From Dietzia aurantiaca (GTDB lineage Bacteria; Actinomycetota; Actinomycetes; Mycobacteriales; Mycobacteriaceae), in NCBI RefSeq assembly GCF_021033825.1, contig NZ_JAIFXZ010000013.1, positions 62,001 through 126,000 on the forward strand: DNA of 64,000 nt, in the 5' to 3' direction. Position numbers and translations under genes: made by a program. The notes beneath the pieces are model-generated. The model was not told where the DNA came from, did no database searches, and was given only the letters and a program-made list of their open reading frames with translations. Of the stretch, positions 2,182-15,200 are shown piece by piece. How positions within the stretch are numbered: position 1 is the first letter of the stretch; each line of letters opens with the position of its first letter.

Positions 2182-3606
2182 GTGAATCAATCGAAGCCCG
2201 CAGGATCGTCGCCGGTGACCGCGCACTCCGCCGCTGCCTCGTCGTCGTCGACTCGCCCCCACGCCGCGACGCGCGGTCAGGTCTTAGCCTGGGCGATGTG
2301 GGACTGGGGTTCGGCCGCGTTCAACGCGGTGATCGTCACCTTCGTGTTCTCGGTCTACCTCACCGATTCGGTCGGAAAGGACCTGGCGGAGCCGTTCTCG
2401 GCCGCGACGTGGCTGTCGATCGCCATCGCGCTGGCGGGCCTGGTCATCGCACTCACCGCGCCGGTGATGGGGCAGCGTGCCGACCGCGGCGGGCGTCGAC
2501 GCCGGTCGTTGGCCCTGTGGACGTACCTGACGATCGCGCTCACCGCGCTGATGTTCCTCGTCGACTCGGGCTCGCCCCATCCGTGGTTCTGGGTGGGACT
2601 GGTGCTGCTGGCGGTCGGATCCATCACCTTCGAGTTCGCCGAGGTCTCGTACTTCGCCATGCTGCGGCAGGTGTCCACACCGACCACTGTCGGGCGCGTG
2701 TCGGGCTTCGGCTGGGCGATGGGCTACTTCGGCGGCATCTTCCTCCTGCTGGCCGCGTTTCTCGGCTTCATCTCCGGCGAGGGCGACGAGCGCGGCCTGC
2801 TCGGCATCCCCGTCGACGGTGGCCTCAATGTGCGGATGGTGTGTCTGATCGCCGCCGTGTGGTTCGCGGTGTTCGCGCTGCCGGTGCTGTTCAGGGTCCC
2901 CGAGAACCGGCCCAAAGAGAAGAACGACGACGACAACGACGCCAACGCCGGCTTCCTCGAGTCGTATCGCATCCTCTGGGCCGATCTGAAGACGCTGTGG
3001 GCGCGCGATCCACGGACGGTGAAGTTCCTCATCGCCAGCGCGATCTTCCGGGACGGGCTCGCGGGTGTGTTCACCTTCGGGGCGATCCTCGCGGTGACCG
3101 TGTACGGGCTGGCCCCAGGGGATGTGCTGATCTTCGGAGTGGCGGCTAACGTGGTGGCGGCGCTCGGGGCGGTGGCGGCCGGTTACCTCGACGACCGGGT
3201 CGGGCCCAAGGCCGTGATCGTCGGCTCGCTGGTGGCGATGCTGGTGACCATGACCGTGCTGGTGTTCGTCGACGGCGCCGCCATGTTCTGGATCTTCGGC
3301 CTGCTCATGTGCCTGTTCGTGGGGCCGGCGCAGTCGGCGTCGCGCTCGTTCCTCGCGCGACTGGTCCCGCCTGAGAGCGACGGCCAGATGTTCGGGCTCT
3401 ACGCCACGACGGGGCGCGCCGTCTCGTTCCTCGCGCCGGCGCTGTTCGGGCTGTTCACCTGGGCGTTCAGCGCCGACCGGGCGGGCATCGCGGGGATCGC
3501 GCTCGTCCTTCTGGTCGGCCTGCTCCTGCTGCTGCCGGTACGCACCCCGACCAGTGTCGAGACCTCGGAGCACTGGGCCGAGGACCCCTCGACGCCGTCG
3601 GTCTGA
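2182..3606 (+). CDS. UMF1/Atg22-like MFS transporter
   Basis: This is a 474-aa integral membrane protein with about 12 hydrophobic segments. It opens with the signature W-A-M-W-D-W-G-S-A-A-F-N-A in the first helix, typical of the MFS families related to yeast vacuolar Atg22 (UMF1 in bacteria). It carries the MFS loop motif with R-A-D-R-G-G-R-R-R-R between helices 2 and 3, and a long charged central loop rich in Asp/Asn (about residues 248-258). The exported substrate is not known for bacterial members. I chose the GTG at 2182; another GTG at 2173 is equally in frame. The gene ends 46 bp before the convergent HAD phosphatase. Confidence 0.85.
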   Translation: MNQSKPAGSSPVTAHSAAASSSSTRPHAATRGQVLAWAMWDWGSAAFNAVIVTFVFSVYLTDSVGKDLAEPFSAATWLSIAIALAGLVIALTAPVMGQRADRGGRRRRSLALWTYLTIALTALMFLVDSGSPHPWFWVGLVLLAVGSITFEFAEVSYFAMLRQVSTPTTVGRVSGFGWAMGYFGGIFLLLAAFLGFISGEGDERGLLGIPVDGGLNVRMVCLIAAVWFAVFALPVLFRVPENRPKEKNDDDNDANAGFLESYRILWADLKTLWARDPRTVKFLIASAIFRDGLAGVFTFGAILAVTVYGLAPGDVLIFGVAANVVAALGAVAAGYLDDRVGPKAVIVGSLVAMLVTMTVLVFVDGAAMFWIFGLLMCLFVGPAQSASRSFLARLVPPESDGQMFGLYATTGRAVSFLAPALFGLFTWAFSADRAGIAGIALVLLVGLLLLLPVRTPTSVETSEHWAEDPSTPSV

Positions 3607-3652
3607 CAGTGCGCCGCCTCGTCTGGCCTGCCGCTGCCAGGGCCAGCGAATG

Positions 3653-4357
3653 TCAGCCGAGGTCGTCGAGGCGGGCGAGGACAGCCGCGGCGTCGTCGAC
3701 GATGTCGGAGAAGCCCGCTGCGCGGAGTTCGTCGTCGCCGATCCCACCGGTGCGCACCGCGATCGAGCGAATGCCGAGCTTGGTGGCCGCGATAGCGTCC
3801 CAGGTGGCGTCGCCGACCATGACCGCATCTGAGGCGTCGACGCCCGAGCGCTCCAACGCGATCGCCACGATGGTCGGATCCGGCTTGGCCTGGTCCACGT
3901 CCTCGCCCGTGGTCACGGCGTCCACGAACTCGTCCACGTCCAGCAATGTCCGGGCGGACTCGAACTCCGACGGCGGAGCGGACGTGGCCAGCACAGTGAT
4001 CCATCCGCTTTCCCTGGCCTCGCGCACGAGATCGCGGGCCCCCGGCAGCAGTCGCAACGATTCGGCGGCCTCGGCGTAATACCGGCTGTGCAGATCCTTG
4101 GCCCGGCTCGCTATGCGGTCGCGTTCCTCGTCGTCGTCGACCCCCGCCAGCTCGAGTAGCTCGGCGACGAGCGTGCCACCGTCCTTACCCACGCGGCGGT
4201 GGACCTCCACGTGGGGCACCGTCGCGCCCGCTTCGTCGAGGGCGCGGTGCCACGTCGACACGTGCACATATGTGGAGTCGACCAGGGTGCCGTCGACGTC
4301 CAGGAGGAGAGCGCGGTGACGCGCACCTCGGGACACAGTGGGCGCTGACTCTGACAT
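3653..4357 (-). CDS. HAD-superfamily phosphatase (phosphoglycolate phosphatase-like)
   Basis: This is a 234-aa haloacid dehalogenase-fold hydrolase. Motif I is L-D-V-D-G-T-L-V-D (nucleophile and acid Asp), motif II is the Ser/Thr in L-A-T-S-A, and motif III/IV is K-P-D-P ... M-V-G-D-A-T-W-D. An alpha-helical cap follows motif I (subfamily I, beta-phosphoglucomutase or phosphoglycolate phosphatase type). The substrate is probably a small phosphorylated metabolite and is not determinable here. The ATG at 4357 gives motif I at about residue 20. The gene is divergent from the F420-type oxidoreductase. Confidence 0.85.
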   Translation of the reverse strand: MSESAPTVSRGARHRALLLDVDGTLVDSTYVHVSTWHRALDEAGATVPHVEVHRRVGKDGGTLVAELLELAGVDDDEERDRIASRAKDLHSRYYAEAAESLRLLPGARDLVREARESGWITVLATSAPPSEFESARTLLDVDEFVDAVTTGEDVDQAKPDPTIVAIALERSGVDASDAVMVGDATWDAIAATKLGIRSIAVRTGGIGDDELRAAGFSDIVDDAAAVLARLDDLG

Positions 4358-4495
4358 GTCACGACCGTGCCTTCGCGCGGGGCCGGCGGCAACCGGTGGA
4401 GGACTGGTTCGGCGGCGACGTTGCCGCGAGCGGCAGCCGAGCTGGATCAGGGCCGACCGGTGGCAGGGGACCGGCGGCGCGCGCACGCTCGGGGC

Positions 4496-5488
4496 ATGAC
4501 ACGTTTCGGCTACACCCTCATGACCGAACAGTCCGGCCCCAAGGAGCTCGTGCGCTATGCCGCGGCCGCCGAACAGGCGGGATTCGATTTCGAGGTGGCG
4601 TCCGACCATTACTTTCCGTGGCTGTCCTCGCAAGGACACGCTCCGTACGTCTGGAGCGTGCTCGGGGCAGTCGCGCACGTGACCGAGCGCGTGGACCTGT
4701 GCACCTACGTGACGTGCCCGATCCTGCGATACCACCCGGCCGTGGTGGCGCAGAAGGCCGCGACCGTGCAGATCCTCGCCGACGGACGGTTCATGCTCGG
4801 GATCGGCTCCGGCGAGAACCTCAACGAACATGTGGTGGGGCAGGGGTGGCCTGCGCTGGATGAGCGGCACGAGATGACCGTCGAGGCGTTGGAGATCATC
4901 CGCGAACTGTTCGACGGCGGTCTCGTCACCTACTCGGGCGAGCACTACCGCGTCGATTCGGCCCGCCTGTGGGACCTTCCCGAGAAGCGTGTGCCGATCG
5001 GGGTAGCCGCGGGCGGGGAGAAGGCGCTCGAACGGTTGGCGCCTCTGGCTGACCACCTCATCGCCACCGAACCCGAGGCCGCGTACATCGAGGGATGGAA
5101 CGCGATGGAGGAGCGGCCGAATATCGGGGACGGCGCACGGGCGATCGCCCAGATCCCGATCAGCTGGGATCCGGACTCCGAGAAGGCGGCGGTCGAGCGA
5201 GCGCACGACCAGTTCCGGTGGTTCGCCGGCGGGTGGGCGGCCAACGCGGATCTGCCCACGACTGCCGGGTTCGCCGCGGCGACGAAGTTCGTGCGGCCCG
5301 AGGACGTTGCGGATCAGCTGGCCTGCGGACCGGACCTCGATGCGATCGTGGAGAAGGTGCGGCCGTACTGGGAGGCCGGGTACACCGATATCGCGCTGAT
5401 CCAGATCGGGGACTCGACGCTGGACCGGTTCCTGGCCGAGGCGGCGGAGCCTCTGCTCGCGCGGTTACGGGAGGCGTCGCCGACCTAG
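4496..5488 (+). CDS. LLM-class F420-dependent oxidoreductase
   Basis: This 330-aa TIM-barrel protein belongs to the luciferase-like monooxygenase superfamily. It has the N-terminal F-G-Y-T-L strand, the D-H-Y-F-P-W segment, L-G-I-G-S-G-E-N-L-N-E-H and the P-I-G-V-A-A-G-G-E-K-A phosphate-binding loop. These match the F420-dependent glucose-6-phosphate dehydrogenase-like family (TIGR03557 type), which passes hydride to or from deazaflavin F420. The true substrate is unknown. F420 enzymes of this class are numerous in Mycobacteriales. The ATG at 4496 starts directly at the conserved first strand; codons further upstream are low-complexity and Arg/Gly-rich. Confidence 0.88.
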   Translation: MTRFGYTLMTEQSGPKELVRYAAAAEQAGFDFEVASDHYFPWLSSQGHAPYVWSVLGAVAHVTERVDLCTYVTCPILRYHPAVVAQKAATVQILADGRFMLGIGSGENLNEHVVGQGWPALDERHEMTVEALEIIRELFDGGLVTYSGEHYRVDSARLWDLPEKRVPIGVAAGGEKALERLAPLADHLIATEPEAAYIEGWNAMEERPNIGDGARAIAQIPISWDPDSEKAAVERAHDQFRWFAGGWAANADLPTTAGFAAATKFVRPEDVADQLACGPDLDAIVEKVRPYWEAGYTDIALIQIGDSTLDRFLAEAAEPLLARLREASPT

Positions 5489-5582
5489 GCGGGCCGACGC
5501 GGTGCGCGAGACCCACGGGCCACCGACGGCAGGGGCGAGGTGCTCTGGCCTGGCCGAGACCGGGCGCGCCTGAGTCGGCGCC

Positions 5583-7628
5583 TCACCGCCCTCGGTCCGG
5601 GGGCGCCGCGCTGAACACGCGACCGCCGGGCTGGCCCCGTCGTCCCGCCTGCGACCGCAGACGATGGAGCTTGAGACCGGCGTGCACCTCGAACGCCCGC
5701 GGCTGGTCGCGCCAGCCCGGACCGAGGAGTCGCGAGATCCGGCCGGCGCGTTGGGTGATGGTGTTGGGGTGCACGTCGAGGTCGGCGGCCGCGGCGCGGA
5801 CCCCCCCGGCGTGGTCAAGCAGCGCCAACGCGGTGGCGGCCAGAGCGGTGCCGTGGCGGTCATCGCTGTCGAGCAGGGGGCCCGCCTGGGCGCGGATGAA
5901 GTCGTCGAGGTCCTCAGCGGTGGGGTCGGTGAACAACATGGAGAACACGCCGAACTGCTCGACGCGCACTACCTCGCCGGTGTAGCCGAGGGCGTGGGCG
6001 AGGTGAAGCGAGCGAAGCGTGTGCGTGAATTCGGGGCGGATGAGTTCAAGGTCCACCACTGCGCGGCTGAGCACCACGATCTCGCCCAGCTCTCCGGACA
6101 ACTCGGTGGCCAGCGTCGCGAGCGGCCCGCCGGATTCGGCGGGGGCGAGAACCACCGCGACCTCGTCCACGACGGCTGCCATCCCGTTGTGCTGCTCCGT
6201 CCACCGCGTCAGCCGCCGCTCCCGTGACGGATCGCCGGAATCGCACAACAGGATCCGCAGCCCGTCGAGCCCGATGCCGGATCGTTGCAATTTACGACGC
6301 AGTTCGGGTGATGACGACGAGACCAATTTCCGCACCACTTCAGTGGCAGTGCGCCGCTCGGCGTCCGCGAGGGCCTGTGTGGACAGCTGGCACAGGGCGA
6401 CCGCCTGCGAGGTCCACTGGAGCAGCCGGGCCGTGGCGGGGTCCTCAAGGGCCTGCGTGCGGGTGACGAGGTGGCCGACCGCGCGGTTGTAGGCCACGAC
6501 GTCGATCACGGCCCACCGGCGGCGGCCGACCTGCACCTCGCGAAGTTCCGGGCGGGGCAGTTCGCCGCGCGGGGTGGCCAGAACGGACGGCTCGGGCAGG
6601 GTCCAGGAGGCGGCGGTCGTCGGGGTGAGCGGGGTGCTCGCGACCACGGCGGTGCCGGTGGTCCGGTCGACATAGGCGACGTCGGTTCCGGCCTCCTCGC
6701 CTACGGCGGCGAGGACCTCGGAGACACCGGCACCGTCCAGGACCACCGCGTTGAGGCGGGCATGAAGGCGGGACTGGCGCTCCTCCTCGGCTCGCTTGGC
6801 CTCGCTCTGTTCCGCGGCCACCGACACTTCGCGCAGTGCTCGTTCGCGGCGTTCATCCAGCTCGGCGTTCTGTAGGGCGATCGCCGCGTGGCGGGCGAGC
6901 GCGGAGAGGAGGAACACCTCGTCGTCGGAGAACTTCTCCTCATGGGTGCGGGCGGCGAACAGGAGGCCGGTGATCCGGCCGCCCACCACGAGGGGAGTGG
7001 CCAGGAGGGTGGAGATCTGTTGGCGGGCAAGCAGTTCGGCGTAGTCGGCCGGGGTGTCCGCCGGGCGGGTCGTGGCGTAGTCCGCCACCTGGTACGGCTG
7101 GCCGGTCTGCAGGACCACGCCGCCCACCCCGAGACCGGGGGAGACAGGGATGCCGAGGAACTCCGGGGCGAGGTCACCGCTCCACGCCCGAATCGCGTAG
7201 GAGACCGGCTCGGCGGCGGGCACGCTTGAGGTGACTCCGGCGCCGGCCGGCGAACCGCGTCCGCCCGGTGCCGTGTCTCCCGCCGGCTCGGGGGTGTTGA
7301 GGTACACGTAATCGCAGTCCAGCAGGCGGCGAGCTCGGGAGGTGATCTCCCTGAGCACCGCGTCGACATTGTGGACGGCCACCAACTCGCCTGTGGACTC
7401 GATCACCTCGAACAGCCGCGCGACCCGTCGCCGTTCCGCCCGGGCCGTCGCCCGCGCGGCGTGCGCGGCGGCCCGGATCCGCGCAGCCATCTTCGCGTCC
7501 AGCCCGGCCTCGACTGCCCGCAGGCGCGCGTCGAACTCCTCGGTGGGGCTTATCTCGACCACGCCCGAGAGCAAACTGGCGATGGCGGATGGGTGAACAG
7601 CACCAGCATCGCTGTGTGTAGAGATCAC
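5583..7628 (-). CDS. GAF-domain PucR/CdaR-like transcriptional regulator
   Basis: This 681-aa regulator has a helical N-terminal segment with an Ala/Arg-rich coiled coil (about residues 35-75), then a GAF sensory domain (about 80-235, with the typical V-L-Q-T-G-Q-P and L-L-A-T-P-L-V-V-G motifs). A second coiled coil and a middle region follow, and a C-terminal helix-turn-helix (about 600-655) reads L-L-D-H-A-G-G-V-R-A-A-A-A-D-L-D-V-H-P-N-T-I-T-Q-R. That C-terminus is typical of the PucR/CdaR group, where the helix pair binds DNA and the upstream domains sense a metabolite. It is divergent from the HMG-CoA reductase operon across 138 bp, so it is probably its regulator. The start codon is GTG at 7628. 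Confidence 0.85.
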   Translation of the reverse strand: MISTHSDAGAVHPSAIASLLSGVVEISPTEEFDARLRAVEAGLDAKMAARIRAAAHAARATARAERRRVARLFEVIESTGELVAVHNVDAVLREITSRARRLLDCDYVYLNTPEPAGDTAPGGRGSPAGAGVTSSVPAAEPVSYAIRAWSGDLAPEFLGIPVSPGLGVGGVVLQTGQPYQVADYATTRPADTPADYAELLARQQISTLLATPLVVGGRITGLLFAARTHEEKFSDDEVFLLSALARHAAIALQNAELDERRERALREVSVAAEQSEAKRAEEERQSRLHARLNAVVLDGAGVSEVLAAVGEEAGTDVAYVDRTTGTAVVASTPLTPTTAASWTLPEPSVLATPRGELPRPELREVQVGRRRWAVIDVVAYNRAVGHLVTRTQALEDPATARLLQWTSQAVALCQLSTQALADAERRTATEVVRKLVSSSSPELRRKLQRSGIGLDGLRILLCDSGDPSRERRLTRWTEQHNGMAAVVDEVAVVLAPAESGGPLATLATELSGELGEIVVLSRAVVDLELIRPEFTHTLRSLHLAHALGYTGEVVRVEQFGVFSMLFTDPTAEDLDDFIRAQAGPLLDSDDRHGTALAATALALLDHAGGVRAAAADLDVHPNTITQRAGRISRLLGPGWRDQPRAFEVHAGLKLHRLRSQAGRRGQPGGRVFSAAPPDRGR

Positions 7629-7766
7629 ATTTTTTAGTCTACGGGAGTGGCCTCAGCACATTGTCTACCTGTGATGACGGTCATAAGGTCGCGACTACGA
7701 GCGTCGGGACCTCAATGCGGGGTCTCGGGCGCGACCCCGTACAACAGCGAAGGTGTGACTGACGAC
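7629..7766. promoter_or_regulatory. Divergent control region of the mvaA operon with an 11-bp palindrome
   Basis: This 138-bp region separates the GAF regulator from mvaA. It is less GC-rich than its surroundings. It holds a perfect palindrome ATGAC-G-GTCAT at 7674-7684 and two GTCTAC hexamers (7637-7642 and 7663-7668) spaced 26 bp apart. A GAAGG stretch ending at 7753 could serve as ribosome site for mvaA, with long spacing. These elements are candidate operator and promoter parts. The assignment to the divergent regulator is inference. Confidence 0.45.
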
Positions 7767-9041
7767 ATGGTGAACAGCCGGATTCCCGGGCTCAAAGACC
7801 TGACTCTTGACGAGCGGCGCGAGATCGTCGCCACGAACTCCCCGCTCAGCGCGGACGACTTCGCCGCGTGGGACCCCGCCACGGCGCTGACGCTAGAGCA
7901 GGCCGACCACATGATCGAGAACGTGGTGGGGGTACTGCCGATCCCGATCGGCTTCGCCGCCAACTTCACCATCAACGGCCGCGATGTCCTGGTACCCATG
8001 GCCACCGAGGAGCCCTCCGTGGTGGCCGCGGCCTCCAACGCCGCCCGCATCGCCCGGGCCTCCGGCGGCTTCACCACCAGCTCCTCCGCGCCGATCATGC
8101 GCGCCCAGGTGCAGGTTGTGGATGTGGCCGACCCGCAGGCTGCTCGCCTTCGTCTGTTCGAAGCCCGTGACGAGCTCATCGCTGCAGCCAACGCCCAGGA
8201 CCCCATGCTCGTCAGCCTCGGCGGCGGTGTGCGCGACATCGACGTGCAACTCGTCGAGGCCGCGAACCAGACCTACGTGGTCCTTCACCTCATCGTGGAC
8301 GTCCGTGACGCAATGGGTGCCAACGCGGTCAACACCATGGCCGAGGCCATAGCCGCCCGCGTGGGCGAACTGGCCCAGGGTCGCCCGGTCCTGCGTATTC
8401 TGTCCAACAAGGCCGACCTGCGCGTGGCCCGCGCCCGCGCCGTGTTCTCCGCCGAGCAGCTGGGCGGGGAGGAGATCGTCGACGACATCGTCCACGCCGC
8501 CGCCCTGGCGAACGCCGACCCGTACAGGGCCGCAACCCATAACAAGGGCGCCACCAACGGCATCGTCGCCGTGGTCCTGGCCACCGGTAACGACACCCGC
8601 GCCGTCGAGGCGGGCATCCACTCCCACGCCGTGCGTGAGGGCCGCTACACCGCGCTGACCCGGTTCGAGAAGGACGCCGGCGGCGACCTCGTGGCCTCGC
8701 TCGAGATCCCTATGGCCGTCGGCCTGGTGGGCGGCGCGACCAAGGTGCACCCAGGCGCGCAGAAGGCCGTCAAGATGCTCGACGTATCCACCGCGTCTGA
8801 ACTCGCCGAGGTGATCGTGGCCGTGGGCCTGGCCCAGAATGTCGCCGGTCTGCGCGTGCTGGCCACCGAGGGCGTCCAGCGCGGCCACATGTCGCTACAC
8901 GCCCGGAACGTCGCCGTGGCGGCCGGGGCCAGCACACCGGAGGAGATCACCGCCGTGGCCGAGAAGATGGTGTCCGAGAAGGCCGTGCGCGCCGAGCGTG
9001 CCGCCGAGATCCTGGAAGAGGTGCGCGGTGATGGCAAGTAA
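7767..9041 (+). CDS. mvaA: Class II (degradative) hydroxymethylglutaryl-CoA reductase
   Basis: The enzyme interconverts mevalonate plus CoA and HMG-CoA. Class II bacterial enzymes of the Pseudomonas mevalonii type normally work in the oxidative, catabolic direction with NAD. The 424-aa protein follows the P. mevalonii sequence almost throughout as I remember it: E-N-V-V-G near residue 51, the E-E-P-S-V-V-A-A-A-S block with catalytic Glu82, the H-N-K-G block with Lys260, A-T-G-N-D with Asp276, V-G-L-A-Q-N near 353, and R-G-H-M-S-L-H-A-R with His374. The ATG at 7767 matches the family N-terminus; a GTG at 7755 is also in frame. Its last 11 bases overlap the next gene. No HMG-CoA lyase or synthase is encoded nearby, so the product must be handled by enzymes elsewhere. 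Confidence 0.93.
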   Translation: MVNSRIPGLKDLTLDERREIVATNSPLSADDFAAWDPATALTLEQADHMIENVVGVLPIPIGFAANFTINGRDVLVPMATEEPSVVAAASNAARIARASGGFTTSSSAPIMRAQVQVVDVADPQAARLRLFEARDELIAAANAQDPMLVSLGGGVRDIDVQLVEAANQTYVVLHLIVDVRDAMGANAVNTMAEAIAARVGELAQGRPVLRILSNKADLRVARARAVFSAEQLGGEEIVDDIVHAAALANADPYRAATHNKGATNGIVAVVLATGNDTRAVEAGIHSHAVREGRYTALTRFEKDAGGDLVASLEIPMAVGLVGGATKVHPGAQKAVKMLDVSTASELAEVIVAVGLAQNVAGLRVLATEGVQRGHMSLHARNVAVAAGASTPEEITAVAEKMVSEKAVRAERAAEILEEVRGDGK

Positions 9042-9564
9042 CCCTGAGACTCCCGGCTCGCACGCGGGTGCGGTCGTACCCGACGGCGACCCGGAACTGG
9101 TCAGCGTCTGGAACGAGACCGTCAAGACGCGCAACCTCGGCTACTCCCTTCTCATCAGCGTCCCGGCGACGCTGATCGGCTTGCTCGTGGCCGAGAACCT
9201 GCTCTCGCGTGTGATGGCCGACGCGGATATCGCCAAGACCTACTCCCTGCTCATCGGCCTGGCGATCGTGGTGACCACCGCCGTGATCAATGCCCGTCTG
9301 TTCAAGCCCCAGCGAATCGTCACTACTGAGGAGCCCGGCGAGAGCACCACCTTCGAGGAGACCCTTCGCGAACTCGCCGACGAGCCCGCAGGCCTGGGCG
9401 ACACCTCCGCCGTGCCCGAGGAGGTCCGCCAGGAGATGCGCGAGCTCGGACTGTACGACGCGTTCGTGCGCGCCGAGAAGCGTGTTGCCGCTGAACGCGC
9501 CGGGGCGACCGGTGCGGGTACGGCCGGCGCCGACCGCACCGCAGGGGAGGGTGATGCCCGATGA
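9031..9564 (+). CDS. Small two-helix membrane protein of the mvaA operon
   Basis: This 177-aa protein is not a family I recognise. It has a short hydrophilic N-terminus, two predicted membrane helices (about residues 32-50 and 62-80), then a long charged, probably cytoplasmic tail rich in Glu and Ala. The gene starts inside the end of mvaA (ATG at 9031) and its TGA overlaps the ATG of the TctA-like permease, so all three are translationally coupled. By position it occupies the slot held by the small TctB subunit in tripartite tricarboxylate transporters. However, TctB usually has four helices and no such tail, so it is either a divergent partner or a new accessory subunit. Function is inferred from context only. 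Confidence 0.7.
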   Translation: MASNPETPGSHAGAVVPDGDPELVSVWNETVKTRNLGYSLLISVPATLIGLLVAENLLSRVMADADIAKTYSLLIGLAIVVTTAVINARLFKPQRIVTTEEPGESTTFEETLRELADEPAGLGDTSAVPEEVRQEMRELGLYDAFVRAEKRVAAERAGATGAGTAGADRTAGEGDAR

Positions 9565-10940
9565 TGCTCATCCAGGATCTGCCCACCGCGCTGCTGTGGG
9601 CGCTCATCGCCGCCGTCGTTTTCGGTGCCCTCGGCCTGGTCTCCGGTACCGACGAGACCGCCACCATCACACCCATCACCCTGCTCGTGGTGCTCCTCGG
9701 CGTCCCGCCGGTGGGGATCTTCGCCTTCTTCATCGCGGCGGTGGTCTCCAAACACCTCACCCACGCCATCCCCACCACCATGTTGGGGATCCCCGGCGAC
9801 ACCATGGCCATCCCCTTGCTCGAGGAGGCCAACTTCCTGCGCAGGCTCGGCGTGCCGCACATCGCGCTGCGCAAGGCGATCAGCGGCGGCATCATCGCCG
9901 CCCTCATCTCCGTCCCGGTCTCCGTGGGTATCGCCGGTCTGCTCAGCCCGTTCGCCGACGCCGTCACCTCCGCCGCGCCGTGGATATTCCTCGCCGCAAC
10001 AGTGCTCATCGCGTACTTCTCGCCGGCACGCATTGCCGGTGTGCTCGTGATCATCCCGTTCGTCATGCTCGTGCTGGGTCTGCGCGCGATCGGCGCCGAC
10101 TTCGGAGGGCAGACCCTCACCGTGAGCTTCTTCCTCGGCATCGCGGCCGGGCCGCTCATCCTGGACCTGCTGCTGGTCTCGTCGCCGGCCGGTCGACGCG
10201 AGGCGCGTCGGGACCAGGTGGAGACGCGTCACATGTCGGTGTCGCAGACCTCGTCGTCGTCGTACTTCCCCAACCCACTCAAGATCCTCGACAAGCGCCA
10301 GGTGGGCCTCACCGCGGCGGCGTCGGCGGTCTCGTCGAGCACGTTCGTGTTCAGCCCCGTCGCCATGACGGTGATGGTCGGCGAGGCGATCCGTCGCTTC
10401 CCCAAGAACGCCTACCACCGCCTCACCACCCGCATGGCCGTGAAGAACGGCACTACGGAGTCGACCTACCTGGGCGAGACCCTCATCCCGCTTGTCGCGT
10501 TCGGCCTGCCACTGAGCCCCATGTCCGTGGGCCCGGCGGCGCCGCTGTTCAACGCCCCGCCGCGGTTCACCGTCGACACCGAGACGGGTGAGGTGACCAA
10601 CCTCCACACGTTCATGACCAGCTGGGAGTTCCTCGTCTTTGGTCTGGTCGGCGTGCTGGTCGCGGCGGTCGTCGTTTACCCGTTGGCGATGAAATTCGCC
10701 GCGCCCGCAGCGTCGTTCGTCATGCGCAAGGTCAGCCACGAGGCCGTGGTCGCCGCGTTCACCGCGCTCATCCTCATGGTGGCGGTGTGGGAGGGCGGAA
10801 TCTACGGCGTCCTCGTGGTCATCACCGTCGGACTGGTCGGCGGACTGCTCTCCCGCGCCTTCAAGCTCCACGCGGGTGTGCAGTTCATGGCCTTCTACGT
10901 GGCCCTGCTCACCGTCCCGGCGATCTTCGCCCTGTTCTGA
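9561..10940 (+). CDS. TctA-family (tripartite tricarboxylate-type) permease
   Basis: This 459-aa polytopic membrane protein has about 11-12 hydrophobic segments. The TctA signatures are present: I-T-P-I-T-L-L near residue 33 and the H-A-I-P-T-T-M-L-G-I-P-G-D block near 70, which correspond to the conserved substrate and ion region of the large subunit of TTT transporters. No periplasmic binding protein (TctC) is encoded in the window, so uptake may not need one here, or it is supplied from elsewhere. The operon suggests a hydroxylated carboxylate such as mevalonate as substrate; this is inference. The ATG at 9561 overlaps the upstream stop and follows a GGGAGG ribosome site. Confidence 0.85.
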   Translation: MMLIQDLPTALLWALIAAVVFGALGLVSGTDETATITPITLLVVLLGVPPVGIFAFFIAAVVSKHLTHAIPTTMLGIPGDTMAIPLLEEANFLRRLGVPHIALRKAISGGIIAALISVPVSVGIAGLLSPFADAVTSAAPWIFLAATVLIAYFSPARIAGVLVIIPFVMLVLGLRAIGADFGGQTLTVSFFLGIAAGPLILDLLLVSSPAGRREARRDQVETRHMSVSQTSSSSYFPNPLKILDKRQVGLTAAASAVSSSTFVFSPVAMTVMVGEAIRRFPKNAYHRLTTRMAVKNGTTESTYLGETLIPLVAFGLPLSPMSVGPAAPLFNAPPRFTVDTETGEVTNLHTFMTSWEFLVFGLVGVLVAAVVVYPLAMKFAAPAASFVMRKVSHEAVVAAFTALILMVAVWEGGIYGVLVVITVGLVGGLLSRAFKLHAGVQFMAFYVALLTVPAIFALF

Positions 10941-11008
10941 TCCACAATCGCGCCCGGGGACTCGCACGTCGGGACCCCGGGCGCGCTCTTCTAGGAAGGA
11001 CTCGACCC

Positions 11009-12808
11009 ATGACTGTGCGTATCGCCAACTGCAGCGGCTTCCTCGGCGACCGCCGGACCGGCCCCCGCGAGATGCTGGAGGGCGGCCCGGTCGACTACCT
11101 CACCGGCGACTGGCTGGCCGAGCTCACTATGAGCATCCTCGCCAAGCAGCGCAGCCGCGACACCGAGGCGGGGTTCCCCACCTCGTTCGTGGACCAGATC
11201 TCCGACGTGCTCGCGCTGTGCCGTGAGAAGGGTGTGAAGGTTCTCGCCAACGCCGGCGGCGTCAATCCGCACGGGTGCGCCGCCGCGGTGGCCGCCGCAG
11301 CAGCCGAGCGCGGCGTCGACGTGCAGATCGCCGTGGTCGACGGTGACGACGTGGTGGGCCGCGTCGATGAACTGCAGGCCGACGGCTGGACCGCCGAGCA
11401 CCTCGATACCGGCATATCCTTTGCCGAGACCGGGTTGACCCCCGCGGTGGTCAACGTCTACCTGGGCGCGTGGGGGATCGTCGAGGCCATCAGGGCCGGC
11501 GCCGACGTGGTGATCACCGGCCGCGTGTCCGACGCTTCGCCGATCGTGGCCGCGGCAGCCGCCCACCACGGCTGGACCCCGGGCGACCTGGACCAGATCG
11601 CGGGCGCCGTGGTGGCCGGGCACCTCATCGAGTGCAGCGCCCAGGTCACCGGCGGCAACTACTCGTTCTTCACCGAGATCGACCAACCCGAGCACCCGGG
11701 CTTCCCCGTAGCGGAGATCGAGGCCGACGGCTCCTGTGTCATCACCAAGAACCCCGGCACCGGCGGCGCGGTGACGCGTGAGAGCGTGATCGCGCAGTTG
11801 CTGTACGAGATCAACGGTCCCGACTACGCCAATCCCGACGTCCTGGCCCGCTTCGATCGCCTCGAGGTGGAGCAGCAGGGCCCCGACCGCGTCCGCGTGA
11901 CCGGTGCGTTCGGCGAGGTCGTGCCCGCCACGCTCAAGGCAGGCATCGTGGCCGACTACGGCTGGTCGGCCGAGATGATGGTGCTCGTCACCGGCGACCG
12001 GCGCCGCGCCAAGGCCGACTACTGCCTTCGGCAGCTGTGGGCTGAGTTCCCTCAGGGGCGCGAGACGTTCGAGGATGTGGTGGTCAATCTCATCGGCGAG
12101 GAGGTCGAGAACCCGGCCACCCTCGACCAGGGCACCAGCATTCTGCGGATCGCGGTGGCGGACGCCGACCGCGCCCTGGTCAACCGCTTTCCACGCGCGC
12201 TCGTGGAGATCCTGCTCGGCGGCTTCCCCGGCATGGCGCTCACCTCGCCGCCGAGCCGGGCGCGTCAGCGGCAGCTGTTCTGGCCCACGCTGCTCGACGC
12301 GCGGAAGGTGCCCGAGCGGGTGACATTCGAGGGTCGGACATGGGAGGTCGATCGCGCCGCCGTGGCCGCTCCCGCCGAGCAGACACCGCTGCCGGAGGTG
12401 GGGGCCGGCGCCGCGACGAGGGGTGACGACAACGACGCCTCCTCGGCCGGGAACTCCGACCTGGTCTCCGTACCGCTCGGCAGGATCGCCGGCAGTCGCT
12501 CCGGCGACAAGGGCGGTAACGCCACGGTGGGAATCTGGGCCTTGTCGGACGAGGCGTACGCGTTCCTCTCCGACTGGTGGACGCAGGAGAACGTGGCCGG
12601 TCTGCTGCCGCCCGAGGAGTACTCAGGACTGAGGCTGTGGGCCATTCCGAGCCTGCGTGCGCTCGGCGTGACCGTCACCGGCTGGCTCGGCCTCGGCACC
12701 GCGAGCAACGTCGCCCTGGACACCCAGGCCAAGGGCCTCGGTGAGTTCTTGCGGGCCCGGCACCTGCAGGTGCCGCAGGCGGTGCTGCACAGCATCGGGT
12801 CACGTTGA
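11009..12808 (+). CDS. AtuA-family protein (DUF1446) with C-terminal ferredoxin-fold domain
   Basis: This 599-aa protein is of the acyclic terpene utilisation AtuA type. The N-terminal DUF1446/AtuA domain spans about residues 1-450 and shows the opening S-G-F-L-G-D-R, N-A-G-G-V-N-P-H and G-R-V-S-D-A-S blocks and the C-S-A-Q-V-T-G-G-N-Y block. After an acidic linker, a C-terminal domain of about 110 residues begins at G-R-I-A-G-S-R-S-G-D-K-G-G and matches the AtuA-like ferredoxin-fold region. AtuA is required for citronellol and geraniol catabolism in Pseudomonas, but its exact reaction is not established to my knowledge. Linkage here to HMG-CoA reductase and a permease suggests a step on a branched 3-hydroxy acid or its CoA ester. 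The gene ends with a terminator at 12830. Confidence 0.88.
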   Translation: MTVRIANCSGFLGDRRTGPREMLEGGPVDYLTGDWLAELTMSILAKQRSRDTEAGFPTSFVDQISDVLALCREKGVKVLANAGGVNPHGCAAAVAAAAAERGVDVQIAVVDGDDVVGRVDELQADGWTAEHLDTGISFAETGLTPAVVNVYLGAWGIVEAIRAGADVVITGRVSDASPIVAAAAAHHGWTPGDLDQIAGAVVAGHLIECSAQVTGGNYSFFTEIDQPEHPGFPVAEIEADGSCVITKNPGTGGAVTRESVIAQLLYEINGPDYANPDVLARFDRLEVEQQGPDRVRVTGAFGEVVPATLKAGIVADYGWSAEMMVLVTGDRRRAKADYCLRQLWAEFPQGRETFEDVVVNLIGEEVENPATLDQGTSILRIAVADADRALVNRFPRALVEILLGGFPGMALTSPPSRARQRQLFWPTLLDARKVPERVTFEGRTWEVDRAAVAAPAEQTPLPEVGAGAATRGDDNDASSAGNSDLVSVPLGRIAGSRSGDKGGNATVGIWALSDEAYAFLSDWWTQENVAGLLPPEEYSGLRLWAIPSLRALGVTVTGWLGLGTASNVALDTQAKGLGEFLRARHLQVPQAVLHSIGSR

Positions 12809-12829
12809 TACGCACTATCGAGAAGGGTG

Positions 12830-12862
12830 CCCCGCACATTTCCCGAGCGGAGGTGTGCGGGG
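12830..12862 (+). terminator. Terminator of the mvaA-AtuA operon
   Basis: A perfect 9-bp stem (CCCCGCACA at 12830-12838 with TGTGCGGGG at 12854-12862) starts 22 nt after the AtuA stop codon and is followed by TCCTCTTGTCGTT. Confidence 0.7.
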
Positions 12863-12988
12863 TCCTCTTGTCGTTGGCACGGTCGCTGACGCTCTCGGTG
12901 AACGTCGGCAAGGGGAATGTGGGCAAAATGTGTGCACGGCGACCGGTTGAGGTGCGGTCGCCATGCCGAAAACACGCCCTGAGCTGGG

Positions 12989-13061
12989 CGCCCCCGAGAG
13001 GATTCGAACCCCTGACCAGCCGGGTAGAAACCGGATGCTCTATCCACTGAGCTACGGAGGC
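12989..13061 (-). tRNA. tRNA-Arg (anticodon TCT)
   Basis: The reverse complement gives a 73-nt cloverleaf: acceptor GCCTCCG paired with CGGGGGC (one T-G pair), D-stem GCTC/GAGC, anticodon loop TTTCTAC and a T-arm with TTCGAAT. The anticodon TCT reads AGA. No CCA is encoded. The first pair of the anticodon stem looks mismatched (T-C). Confidence 0.93.
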
Positions 13062-13169
13062 ATGCGGCGCCTGCAGCAGGCGTCGCCGGAAGAATGGTAG
13101 CCGATGCAGGGGGACCGCCGAGAAGGAGCGAATCGCCGTCGAGGCATCGGGCTTCCTACGATGGAGGTC

Positions 13170-15200
13170 ATGACGTCGTCGAAGTCCGCTCCCGCCATTC
13201 TCGGTCGGCTGGGAGCCCGCGGTGCGGTTCTGCTGGTGCTGCTCCTCGCGGCCGTCGCCGCGGCGGTGGTCGTTCCGCTGTCGGCCATGTCCACCGACGT
13301 GGCGCTGGAGTTGATCGGCGTGCCCGACCCCGGGGTGCTGACCACCGCCGGGCTGCCGGCGATCCGCGCGATCGGTGAGTTGCTCGCGTCCGTCGCGGTG
13401 GGCACCGCGTTGTTCGCGGCGTTCTTCACCCCGCCGCAGAAGGACAAGACGCTCGACGTCGACGGGTACCGCATGCAGCACATCTCGTCGTGGGCGAACA
13501 TCGCCTGGGCGGTCGCGGCGGCGCTTCTCATCCCGCTGACCCTGTCCGATGTCTCAGGTCGGACCTTCGTCCAGTCCCTGCCGCCGGACCAGTGGCTGGT
13601 GGCGATCAATCAGATCGACGTCGCGTCCTCCTGGCGCTGGGCCGCCGTGATCGCGGTGGTCGCCGCCATCGGCCAGCGACTCACGCTGAGTTGGCGCTGG
13701 TCGACGATCTGGTTGGCCGTCACTGTGCTGTCTCTGCTCCCGGTGGCCGCCACCGGCCATGCCTCCGGCAGCACGGCCCACGACATCGCCACCAACTCGC
13801 TGATCATCCACCTGTTCAGCGCCGCGTTCTATGTCGGCGGTCTCGTGGCGGTGATCATCCACACCATGCGCGGCGGCACCCGGGTGGCGTTGGCCCTGCG
13901 CCGGTACTCGGTGGTCGCGACCGTGGCGATCGCCGCTCTGGCGTTCACCGGTGTGATCAACGCGATGGTCCGCCTGCACCCGGCCGACCTGTTCTCCTCC
14001 ACCTACGGCCTGCTGGTGGTGGCCAAGGCGCTGTTGCTGTGCTTGCTGGCCCTGTTCGGGCTCGCGATCCGGCGTCGCATCATCGCCAAGATCGAGTCGA
14101 CGAATGCCAATGCGCCGGTCGACCGCGGCACGCTTCTGCGGATCGTCCTGGTCGAATCGGCCGTGATGGCGGGAACCATCGGCCTGTCGGTGTCGTTGGG
14201 CCGCACCCCGCCGCCCGCGCCGTTGTACGTGCCCACCCGTCAGGAGGCGCTACTCGGCTTCGAGTTGCCGGGTCCGTTCTCGTTCGAGACGGTCTTCGGA
14301 CTCTGGCGCTTCGACCTCGTCCTGGGCCTGGTGTCCGTGGTGCTGCTCGGCCTGTACCTGTGGGGCGTGATCCACCTGCGCAGGCGCGGGGACTCGTGGC
14401 CCGCGGGCCGGACGTTCTTCTGGGTGGCGGGCTGCGTGACGCTGTTCATCACCACCAGCTCCGGCCTGGGGATGTTCATGATGGCCGACTTCGCCAGCCA
14501 CATGGTGGGCCACATGCTCATCTCGATGCTGGTTCCGGTCCTGCTCGCCCTCGGTGGTCCGCTGACCCTGGCGCTTCGCGCGCTCCCGGCCGCCGGTCGC
14601 GGCAATCCGCCGGGCCCGCGCGAGTGGATCGTCGAGTTCATCAACAATCCGCTCTCGCGCTTCCTCACCCACCCGATCGTGGCGTCGATCCAGTTCGTGG
14701 CCGGCTTCTACCTCATCTACTTCGGTGGGTTCTACGAGACGCTGGCCTCCGAGCATCTGGGTCATATGTTCATGAACGTGCACTTCCTGATCAGTGGCTA
14801 CCTGTTCTACTGGGTGATCATCGGGGTCGACGCGGCGCCGCGGCAGTTCACGTCGATGTACATGATGATGGTTTTGCTGTCCTCGCTGCCGTTCCACGCC
14901 TTCTTCGGCATCCTGCTCATGAACTACCCGACGGTCCTGGCCGAGGGCTGGTACTCCGGCATCGGACTGCCCTGGATCCCGGACCTCCTGCAGAGTCAAC
15001 GGGTCGGCGGCGGCGTGGCCTGGGCGATGGGGGAGATACCCCTGTTCATCGTCATGATCGCGCTCGCCTGGCAGTGGTACCAGAGCGATATGCGCGAGGC
15101 GCGGCGCTCGGAGCGGCAGGCCGAGCGCGACGACGACGCCGAGCTCAAGGCCTATAACGAGATGCTGGCGCAGATGGCCAAGGCGGACCGCCGGCACTGA
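13170..15200 (+). CDS. CopD/CtaG fusion: copper resistance and cytochrome c oxidase assembly membrane protein
   Basis: This 676-aa multi-pass membrane protein has two halves. The N-terminal half (to about residue 360) holds a CopD-like domain with several helices and a conserved histidine pair region (T-G-H-A-S-G ... I-I-H). The C-terminal half is a caa3_CtaG/DUF1404-type domain with conserved His residues in H-M-V-G-H-M and a further M-N-V-H segment, thought to bind copper. It resembles the mycobacterial protein Rv0102. The likely role is periplasmic copper handling or delivery to heme-copper oxidases. The ATG at 13170 was preferred; an ATG at 13161 is also in frame. The extreme C-terminus is charged and cytoplasmic. 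Confidence 0.85.
   Translation: MTSSKSAPAILGRLGARGAVLLVLLLAAVAAAVVVPLSAMSTDVALELIGVPDPGVLTTAGLPAIRAIGELLASVAVGTALFAAFFTPPQKDKTLDVDGYRMQHISSWANIAWAVAAALLIPLTLSDVSGRTFVQSLPPDQWLVAINQIDVASSWRWAAVIAVVAAIGQRLTLSWRWSTIWLAVTVLSLLPVAATGHASGSTAHDIATNSLIIHLFSAAFYVGGLVAVIIHTMRGGTRVALALRRYSVVATVAIAALAFTGVINAMVRLHPADLFSSTYGLLVVAKALLLCLLALFGLAIRRRIIAKIESTNANAPVDRGTLLRIVLVESAVMAGTIGLSVSLGRTPPPAPLYVPTRQEALLGFELPGPFSFETVFGLWRFDLVLGLVSVVLLGLYLWGVIHLRRRGDSWPAGRTFFWVAGCVTLFITTSSGLGMFMMADFASHMVGHMLISMLVPVLLALGGPLTLALRALPAAGRGNPPGPREWIVEFINNPLSRFLTHPIVASIQFVAGFYLIYFGGFYETLASEHLGHMFMNVHFLISGYLFYWVIIGVDAAPRQFTSMYMMMVLLSSLPFHAFFGILLMNYPTVLAEGWYSGIGLPWIPDLLQSQRVGGGVAWAMGEIPLFIVMIALAWQWYQSDMREARRSERQAERDDDAELKAYNEMLAQMAKADRRH

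Follow-up and report, generated by a model that had tools for sequence, protein, structure and literature searches.

The window analysed here is a stretch of 64,000 nucleotides from Dietzia aurantiaca (NCBI RefSeq assembly GCF_021033825.1, contig NZ_JAIFXZ010000013.1, positions 62,001 to 126,000), and the system in question is a set of four plus-strand genes next to a divergent regulator gene. The set comprises a 3-hydroxy-3-methylglutaryl-CoA (HMG-CoA) reductase (HMGR; 7755–9041), a small membrane protein of 177 amino acids (aa) in the position of TctB (9031–9564), a TctA-family permease that is the presumed mevalonate importer (9561–10940; PF01970, 71.6 bits), and an AtuA-family protein of 599 aa (11009–12808), for which we propose a role as an HMG-CoA-cleaving lyase. 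The reductase gene overlaps that of the small protein by 11 bases, and the latter overlaps the TctA gene by 4 bases, in line with the coupling of the three described in a first-pass annotation of this DNA. On the minus strand, 5583–7628 encodes a transcriptional regulator of 681 aa with a GAF domain (PF01590, 69 bits) and a PucR-type HTH_30 domain (PF13556, 45 bits), the divergent regulator of the same annotation; the intergenic region at 7629–7754 is, by its position only, the presumed promoter/operator. A scan for sigma-70-type promoters over 3500–14000 returned zero sites.

By its sequence, the reductase is a member of the degradative class II family, as had been proposed from its four catalytic residues. 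It scored 344 bits against PF00368 and 410.4 bits against the 'degradative' model TIGR00532 (curated cut-off 259.95), and it matched 1qax and 6dio. The alignment with 1qax, which we take to be the HMGR of Pseudomonas mevalonii, was near full-length (E 2e-130) and placed E86, K264, D280, and H378 opposite Glu83, Lys267, Asp283, and His381, presumably the catalytic residues of 1qax, and D149 opposite Asp146, presumably the residue tied to its NAD preference (all positions hand-counted on the alignment). Because of this alignment, GTG 7755 (used as working start) or ATG 7767 is a likelier start codon than the GTG at 7647 given in the list of open reading frames.

The AtuA gene had been assigned to the same operon and described as followed by a terminator, and both statements held, with some caveats. 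Its product, with an AtuA domain (PF07287, 508.5 bits; cut-off 22.8) and a fused AtuA_ferredoxin domain (PF23544, 36.9 bits; cut-off 27), does follow TctA, but at a distance of 68 bases with a G+C hairpin inside (10949–10985, plus strand; an attenuator, a processing site or a terminator-like element). This hairpin has an inverted repeat of 16 nt (88%) and a folding energy of −33 kcal/mol for 73 nt (z −2.6; 2 of 200 shuffles equally stable). In our own gene calls, the corresponding gap is only 12 bases in the congener G013 and 15 in Corynebacterium variabile, so that in the strain of the window the hairpin could lower or uncouple AtuA expression. Given the gap and hairpin on the one side and the spacing in the relatives on the other, co-transcription of AtuA with the upstream genes is likely but not certain. 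Downstream of AtuA, a strong terminator-like hairpin at 12819–12873 (plus strand; inverted repeat of 25 nt, 76%) was more stable than all of 200 shuffles (z −5.9), but its T-tract is poor and it was not listed by the terminator scan.

The distribution of these genes was examined in a survey of the 80 named HMGR loci (the best 80 of 525 encoded relatives from a scan of named genomes, nearly all actinobacterial) together with those of genomes G013 and G047, by phmmer and gene-family clustering of the fetched stretches; counts refer to loci, and a few genomes supply two. HMGR was present in 82 loci and the gene family of the regulator in 74, while the families of the small protein and of TctA each recurred in 36. 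Where HMGR, small protein, and TctA occur together, an HMG-CoA lyase (HMGL) gene lies between them in 27 of 36 loci, giving the order HMGR–HMGL–small protein–TctA, with a PucR-type gene ahead in most. The recurrence of reductase, regulator, and transporter pair, mostly with a lyase, is consistent with the uptake and breakdown of mevalonate suggested in the first-pass annotation, and mevalonate would then be the substrate of both transport and regulation. Among the parts of a tripartite tricarboxylate transporter, TctA was recognised by Pfam; the small protein in the TctB position matched zero Pfam families at E 0.01, and no TctC-type binding-protein gene was recognised in the stretch, with no family search aimed at TctC.

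The remaining nine loci have the order HMGR–small protein–TctA without a lyase, and AtuA is found in two of them (L009 and L089); in the lyase-free locus L088, the small protein–TctA pair lies across the regulator, on its other side. The adjacency check proposed earlier thus returned the exact set HMGR–small protein–TctA–AtuA in the window, in G013 (90% identity to the window for HMGR, 83–84% for AtuA), and in C. variabile (73 and 61%, respectively), in which a thiolase gene directly follows AtuA. HMGR itself is sparse: it was found in 2 of 23 genomes of the genus including that of the window (several genomes are incomplete), in 25 of 397 genomes of the order, and in 1 of 151 genomes of Corynebacterium, namely C. 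variabile. Immediately upstream of the mevalonate genes, the C. variabile locus (L009, 3181–7710) carries a CitMHS transporter, a second AtuA, a separate AtuA_ferredoxin protein, and CoA-transferase A and B, together suggestive of a route for some other hydroxy acid.

Two further arrangements recur among the surveyed loci: HMGR with HMGL and other genes, and HMGR with hydantoinase-like A/B, CaiB, and enoyl-CoA hydratase genes, with or without HMGL (names assigned by eye). Loci with the latter hydantoinase-like A/B–CaiB CoA-transferase–enoyl-CoA hydratase set (families F8, F9, F4, and F7) include L012, L020, L025, L030, L035, L043, and L049, among others; family F8 alone was found in 24 loci.

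Mevalonate catabolism by mvaA-mvaB is known from Pseudomonas mevalonii. The operon described here resembles mvaA-mvaB and the actinobacterial HMGR–HMGL–TctBA clusters in having an HMGR from the same degradative class II family, and most of the 27 HMGL-containing loci in the type of regulator and the transporter pair. Unlike mvaA-mvaB, it lacks an HMG-CoA lyase and has AtuA in addition, as seen in three actinobacterial genomes and, for the HMGR–AtuA pair, on two haloarchaeal plasmids. The local absence of a lyase, already reported in the first-pass annotation, was borne out: NF004283, a model for HMG-CoA lyase with a cut-off of 246 bits, had zero matches on the contig of the window (C5), and a lyase hidden in the stretch was thereby ruled out. 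Nor did the product of 11009–12808 give a PF00682/HMGL match at E 0.01 that would indicate a TIM-barrel lyase sequence within AtuA itself.

The absence of a lyase from the operon was dropped as evidence when taken alone, since 22 other HMGR loci lack one and 21 of their genomes have one elsewhere. In detail, HMGL was present within the fetched stretch in 57 of the 80 named loci, as scored by phmmer rather than by the NF004283 cut-off. Of the 23 that remain, AtuA is linked in one (C. variabile) and not in 22; genomes of 21 of these 22 (7 of 7 and 14 of 15) contain HMGL above the cut-off, the single miss being a Rhizobiales metagenome-assembled genome (MAG) that does have an AtuA gene, but on a contig whose examined part lacks HMGR. 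Five control genomes with HMGL in the locus all scored above the cut-off. Of the 79 named HMGR loci in which AtuA is not linked, 78 thus have a lyase in stretch or genome, against none with a lyase above the cut-off among the three genomes with linked AtuA (that of the window, G013, and C. variabile); Fisher's test gave 4.5e-5, and 9e-4 when the two congeners were treated as a single case. Genome-wide presence of AtuA was discarded as a signal, since some AtuA is present in 24 of the 28 genomes with HMGR that were examined. Because AtuA is common in HMGR genomes that have HMGL, the association with absence of the lyase is one of operon linkage rather than of AtuA presence.

A structural model of AtuA residues 1–450 was compared with the PDB by Foldseek, and the sole match under E 0.001 was 9evf (E 3.6e-14, probability 1.00, 445 columns, TM 0.51, 15% identity); the next match had E 8e-3. 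The PDB title of 9evf is 'Citramalate lyase - ADP - pyruvate complex', and the protein of 9erq/9evf is named there 'Acyclic terpene utilization AtuA family protein | Citramalate lyase, subunit A (cmlA)'. A phmmer search with the AtuA of the window alone missed 9erq/9evf, while a profile of 17 AtuA proteins matched them (E 2.6e-12, best stretch 2.5e-7). The motifs GR..D, EC, LYE, and LK are common to the profile and the solved enzyme, and the 17 proteins share 33 invariant columns, including E38, R172, D175, H205, E208, C209, K247, Y266, E267, and K310. AtuA is thus related to the CmlA-type citramalate lyase, with which, on a model of modest quality, it appears to share the fold over nearly the full AtuA domain as well as the core motifs. 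It differs from CmlA in sequence (about 15% identity) and in the proposed substrate, since that of CmlA is, by its PDB name, citramalate and not a CoA thioester.

That AtuA acts on HMG-CoA as a CoA-transferase, hydrolase or isomerase, preparing the substrate for another enzyme, is very unlikely in our estimation. Linkage to HMGR indicates a class of substrate rather than a reaction, and CoA-transferase genes do lie near some AtuA genes (some named by eye). However, the one related protein with a solved structure carries the name of a C–C lyase for a tertiary hydroxy dicarboxylate, and the step missing from the pathway is a C–C cleavage.

A tblastn search of 72,556 plasmids with the reductase as query yielded 37 records, five of which, all haloarchaeal, were opened. 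In Salinigranum marinum and Halalkalicoccus sp., the plasmid-borne HMGR overlaps by 4 bases with a downstream AtuA (449 or 450 aa), after which comes a small protein; that of Salinigranum is an AtuA_ferredoxin domain (PF23544, 102 bits). The ferredoxin-like small domain is a separate protein in haloarchaea and is fused at the C-terminus of AtuA in the window. A symporter gene lies near the haloarchaeal pair, and the 9 kb around it contain no annotated HMGL on the two plasmids, for which the gene table is incomplete. AtuA as a chance neighbour of HMGR was rejected, since C. variabile has the same set with AtuA at 61% identity and the haloarchaeal genes overlap.

In the AtuA tree, built from 36 proteins, well-supported branches force a minimum of two changes on the HMGR-linked rows, which did not come together as a single group in any of 200 bootstrap trees. 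The actinobacterial trio adjoins a carboxylase-linked AtuA of Rhodococcus and the archaeal pair falls in another branch, so that the pairing of HMGR with AtuA would most simply have arisen twice, by two gains.

Because of this combination of context, phylogeny, and fold, we consider it probable that the genes at 7755–12808 form an operon for mevalonate catabolism in which AtuA takes over the cleavage of HMG-CoA from the TIM-barrel lyase. The first-pass annotation had left the step of AtuA unassigned; the present data point to cleavage of HMG-CoA. The same step would then be carried out by a protein of a family different from both the (S)-HMG-CoA lyases (NF004283) and the (R)-specific Rv2498c. 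Our search of the open-licence literature found no description of AtuA as an HMG-CoA-cleaving enzyme; the mevalonate pathway is already known, as is, going by its name in the PDB, a lyase activity for one member of the AtuA family.

Several observations weigh against this assignment. The linkage of HMGR and AtuA is limited to three genomes of a single actinobacterial group and to two plasmids of archaea, HMGR occurs without an annotated AtuA nearby on three other haloarchaeal plasmids (Halomontanus, Halocatena, and Natronosalvus), and AtuA-family genes are present in 22 of 26 HMGR genomes that have HMGL above the cut-off. The model of the full-length protein of 599 aa is poor (pLDDT 46.5) and its fold search gave zero matches under E 0.001, while the matching model of residues 1–450 rests on an alignment of three sequences (mean pLDDT 57). 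In the profile alignment, the H205 invariant among the AtuA proteins is a lysine in the solved enzyme. For the terpene pathway of Pseudomonas, a review gives the equivalent step to LiuE of the HMGL family (PMC4097962). The search for a lyase elsewhere, also proposed with the first-pass annotation, did return one HMGL-family gene in the genome of the window (contig C1); it covers most of the NF004283 model but, at 185 bits, falls below the cut-off, and the three further matches in this genome score about 30 bits or less each. This gene and its counterpart in G013 (191 bits) lie beside a CaiB CoA-transferase gene, and the active-site motifs of the former seem intact by eye, so that the product could cleave HMG-CoA in trans. 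C. variabile, which gave no NF004283 match beyond one of 26 bits inside a frame of 1184 aa, was searched as a draft with contigs of at least 3,000 bases.

If the HMGL-like protein beside CaiB supplied the lyase in trans, AtuA would be auxiliary, acting for example on a side substrate. In favour of such an arrangement, 21 of the 22 other HMGR loci without lyase or AtuA in the stretch have a genomic lyase, and the gene is present in both Dietzia genomes with the operon. Nonetheless, its score lies below the family cut-off, its distribution does not follow the operon (11 of 23 genomes of the genus, against 2 of 23 for HMGR, some genomes being incomplete), and C. variabile carries the AtuA operon with no HMGL match better than 26 bits. 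A lyase in trans is thus unlikely. HMGL-like genes beside CaiB CoA-transferases also recur in the actinobacterial loci L091, L265, L255–L262, and L264.

Another candidate for the cleavage, again leaving AtuA an auxiliary role, is a PF03328 (CitE-like) beta-hydroxyacyl-CoA lyase of the Rv2498c type. All three genomes with the AtuA operon encode a PF03328 protein in a carboxylase cluster, beside acyl-CoA carboxylase and acyl-CoA dehydrogenase genes, together with a protein of 169–175 aa that is MaoC-like by eye; CoA-transferase genes occur in these stretches in G013 and C. variabile but not in that from the genome of the window. The placement of the PF03328 gene presumably resembles that of Rv2498c in the leucine cluster of Mycobacterium tuberculosis. 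Mevalonate yields the (S) isomer of HMG-CoA. A likeness based on gene placement would imply an enzyme that should not serve the operon, because Rv2498c is reported to cleave (R)-HMG-CoA only (PMC6689899). As the gene is also unlinked to HMGR, we regard a role of this enzyme as highly improbable.

With AtuA as the cleaving enzyme, the pathway may be outlined as follows. The PucR/GAF protein would sense the substrate, and the small protein and TctA would import mevalonate. HMGR would convert (R)-mevalonate, CoA, and NAD+ to (S)-HMG-CoA, an oxidation established for its family. AtuA would then cleave HMG-CoA, releasing the free-carboxylate arm of the HO-C(R)(R')-CH2-COO- unit to yield acetoacetyl-CoA and acetate (or acetyl phosphate), and thiolase, whose gene adjoins AtuA in C. 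variabile, would complete the pathway. Acetate or acetyl phosphate is the preferred outcome because of the ADP in the solved complex, the thiolase of C. variabile, and the phosphate acyltransferase of a Rhodococcus ruber plasmid described below; these are weak hints, by analogy, and acetoacetate and acetyl-CoA are conceivable alternative products. Any use of ATP by AtuA would likewise follow from its relation to the solved enzyme.

AtuA is widespread beyond mevalonate loci. It was found at E 1e-100 or better in 175 of 394 genomes of the class to which the window belongs, and a scan of viral contigs gave one short fragment only. Biotin-dependent acyl-CoA carboxylase genes lie within 6 kb in 16 of 19 actinobacterial AtuA loci and HMGL in none, in a sample that includes one locus of the own genome, consists otherwise mostly of top matches, and is biased to near relatives; this accords with AtuA occupying the place of a lyase in such clusters as well. 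Among plasmids, AtuA occurred in 161 records, of which ten were opened; carboxylase genes were near AtuA in three (Natrinema, Achromobacter, and Rhodococcus), other loci adjoined citrate:proton symporters, TRAP, ABC or TTT genes, or acyl-CoA dehydrogenases, and an annotated HMG-CoA lyase lay within 6 kb in none of the ten. On the plasmid of R. ruber (L243, 5992–10352), AtuA is followed by genes for enoyl-CoA hydratase, phosphate acyltransferase, and thiolase (acetyl-CoA acetyltransferase), an order that would be in keeping with release of acetyl phosphate by AtuA. A shorter AtuA paralogue lies near the carboxylase-linked AtuA of the own genome (contig C1; L165, 13304–14752; very long tree branch, 3.31); since the EC motif at 208–209 is lost (by eye), it may be a non-catalytic partner.

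The AtuA of acyclic terpene utilisation (atuABCDEFGH) has the family name in common with that of the window. The latter differs in its setting, with HMGR and not with carboxylase and dehydrogenase genes, and the terpene step itself is given to LiuE in the review cited above. One paper names AtuA as a lyase. The family presumably had DUF1446 as its older Pfam name. According to a further report, a DUF1446 gene lies downstream of methylaspartate ammonia-lyase in enterobacteria, where the fate of citramalate was unclear in 2015 (PMC4682846).

HMG-CoA, 3-hydroxy-3-isohexenylglutaryl-CoA, and citramalate share the unit HO-C(R)(R')-CH2-COO-, and one chemistry could therefore serve all three. It is conceivable, although we would put it forward as tentative, that the AtuA family consists of general lyases of such tertiary alcohols, releasing acetate or acetyl phosphate with the help of ATP/ADP and, in the case of HMG-CoA, leaving acetoacetyl-CoA.

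Two neighbouring features lie outside the operon. A tRNA-Arg gene is encoded beyond it on the minus strand (12985–13062), and an F420-dependent LLM oxidoreductase (TIGR03557, 482 bits) at 4496–5488 is convergent with the regulator, with no sign of operon membership.

The HMGR-linked AtuA offers a clean test case for the family, as the compound awaiting the next step, (S)-HMG-CoA, is known and no rival lyase of the HMGL family is seen in C. variabile. If the assignment is true, it would give a reaction to the widespread AtuA family and describe the route of mevalonate degradation in the bacteria concerned and, perhaps, in some of the haloarchaea. AtuA would then represent a third kind of HMG-CoA-cleaving enzyme, unrelated to the other two and present in both bacteria and archaea. 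Should the general chemistry also hold, it would explain the presence of AtuA in citronellol breakdown, in actinobacterial carboxylase clusters, and beside citrate-type transporters.

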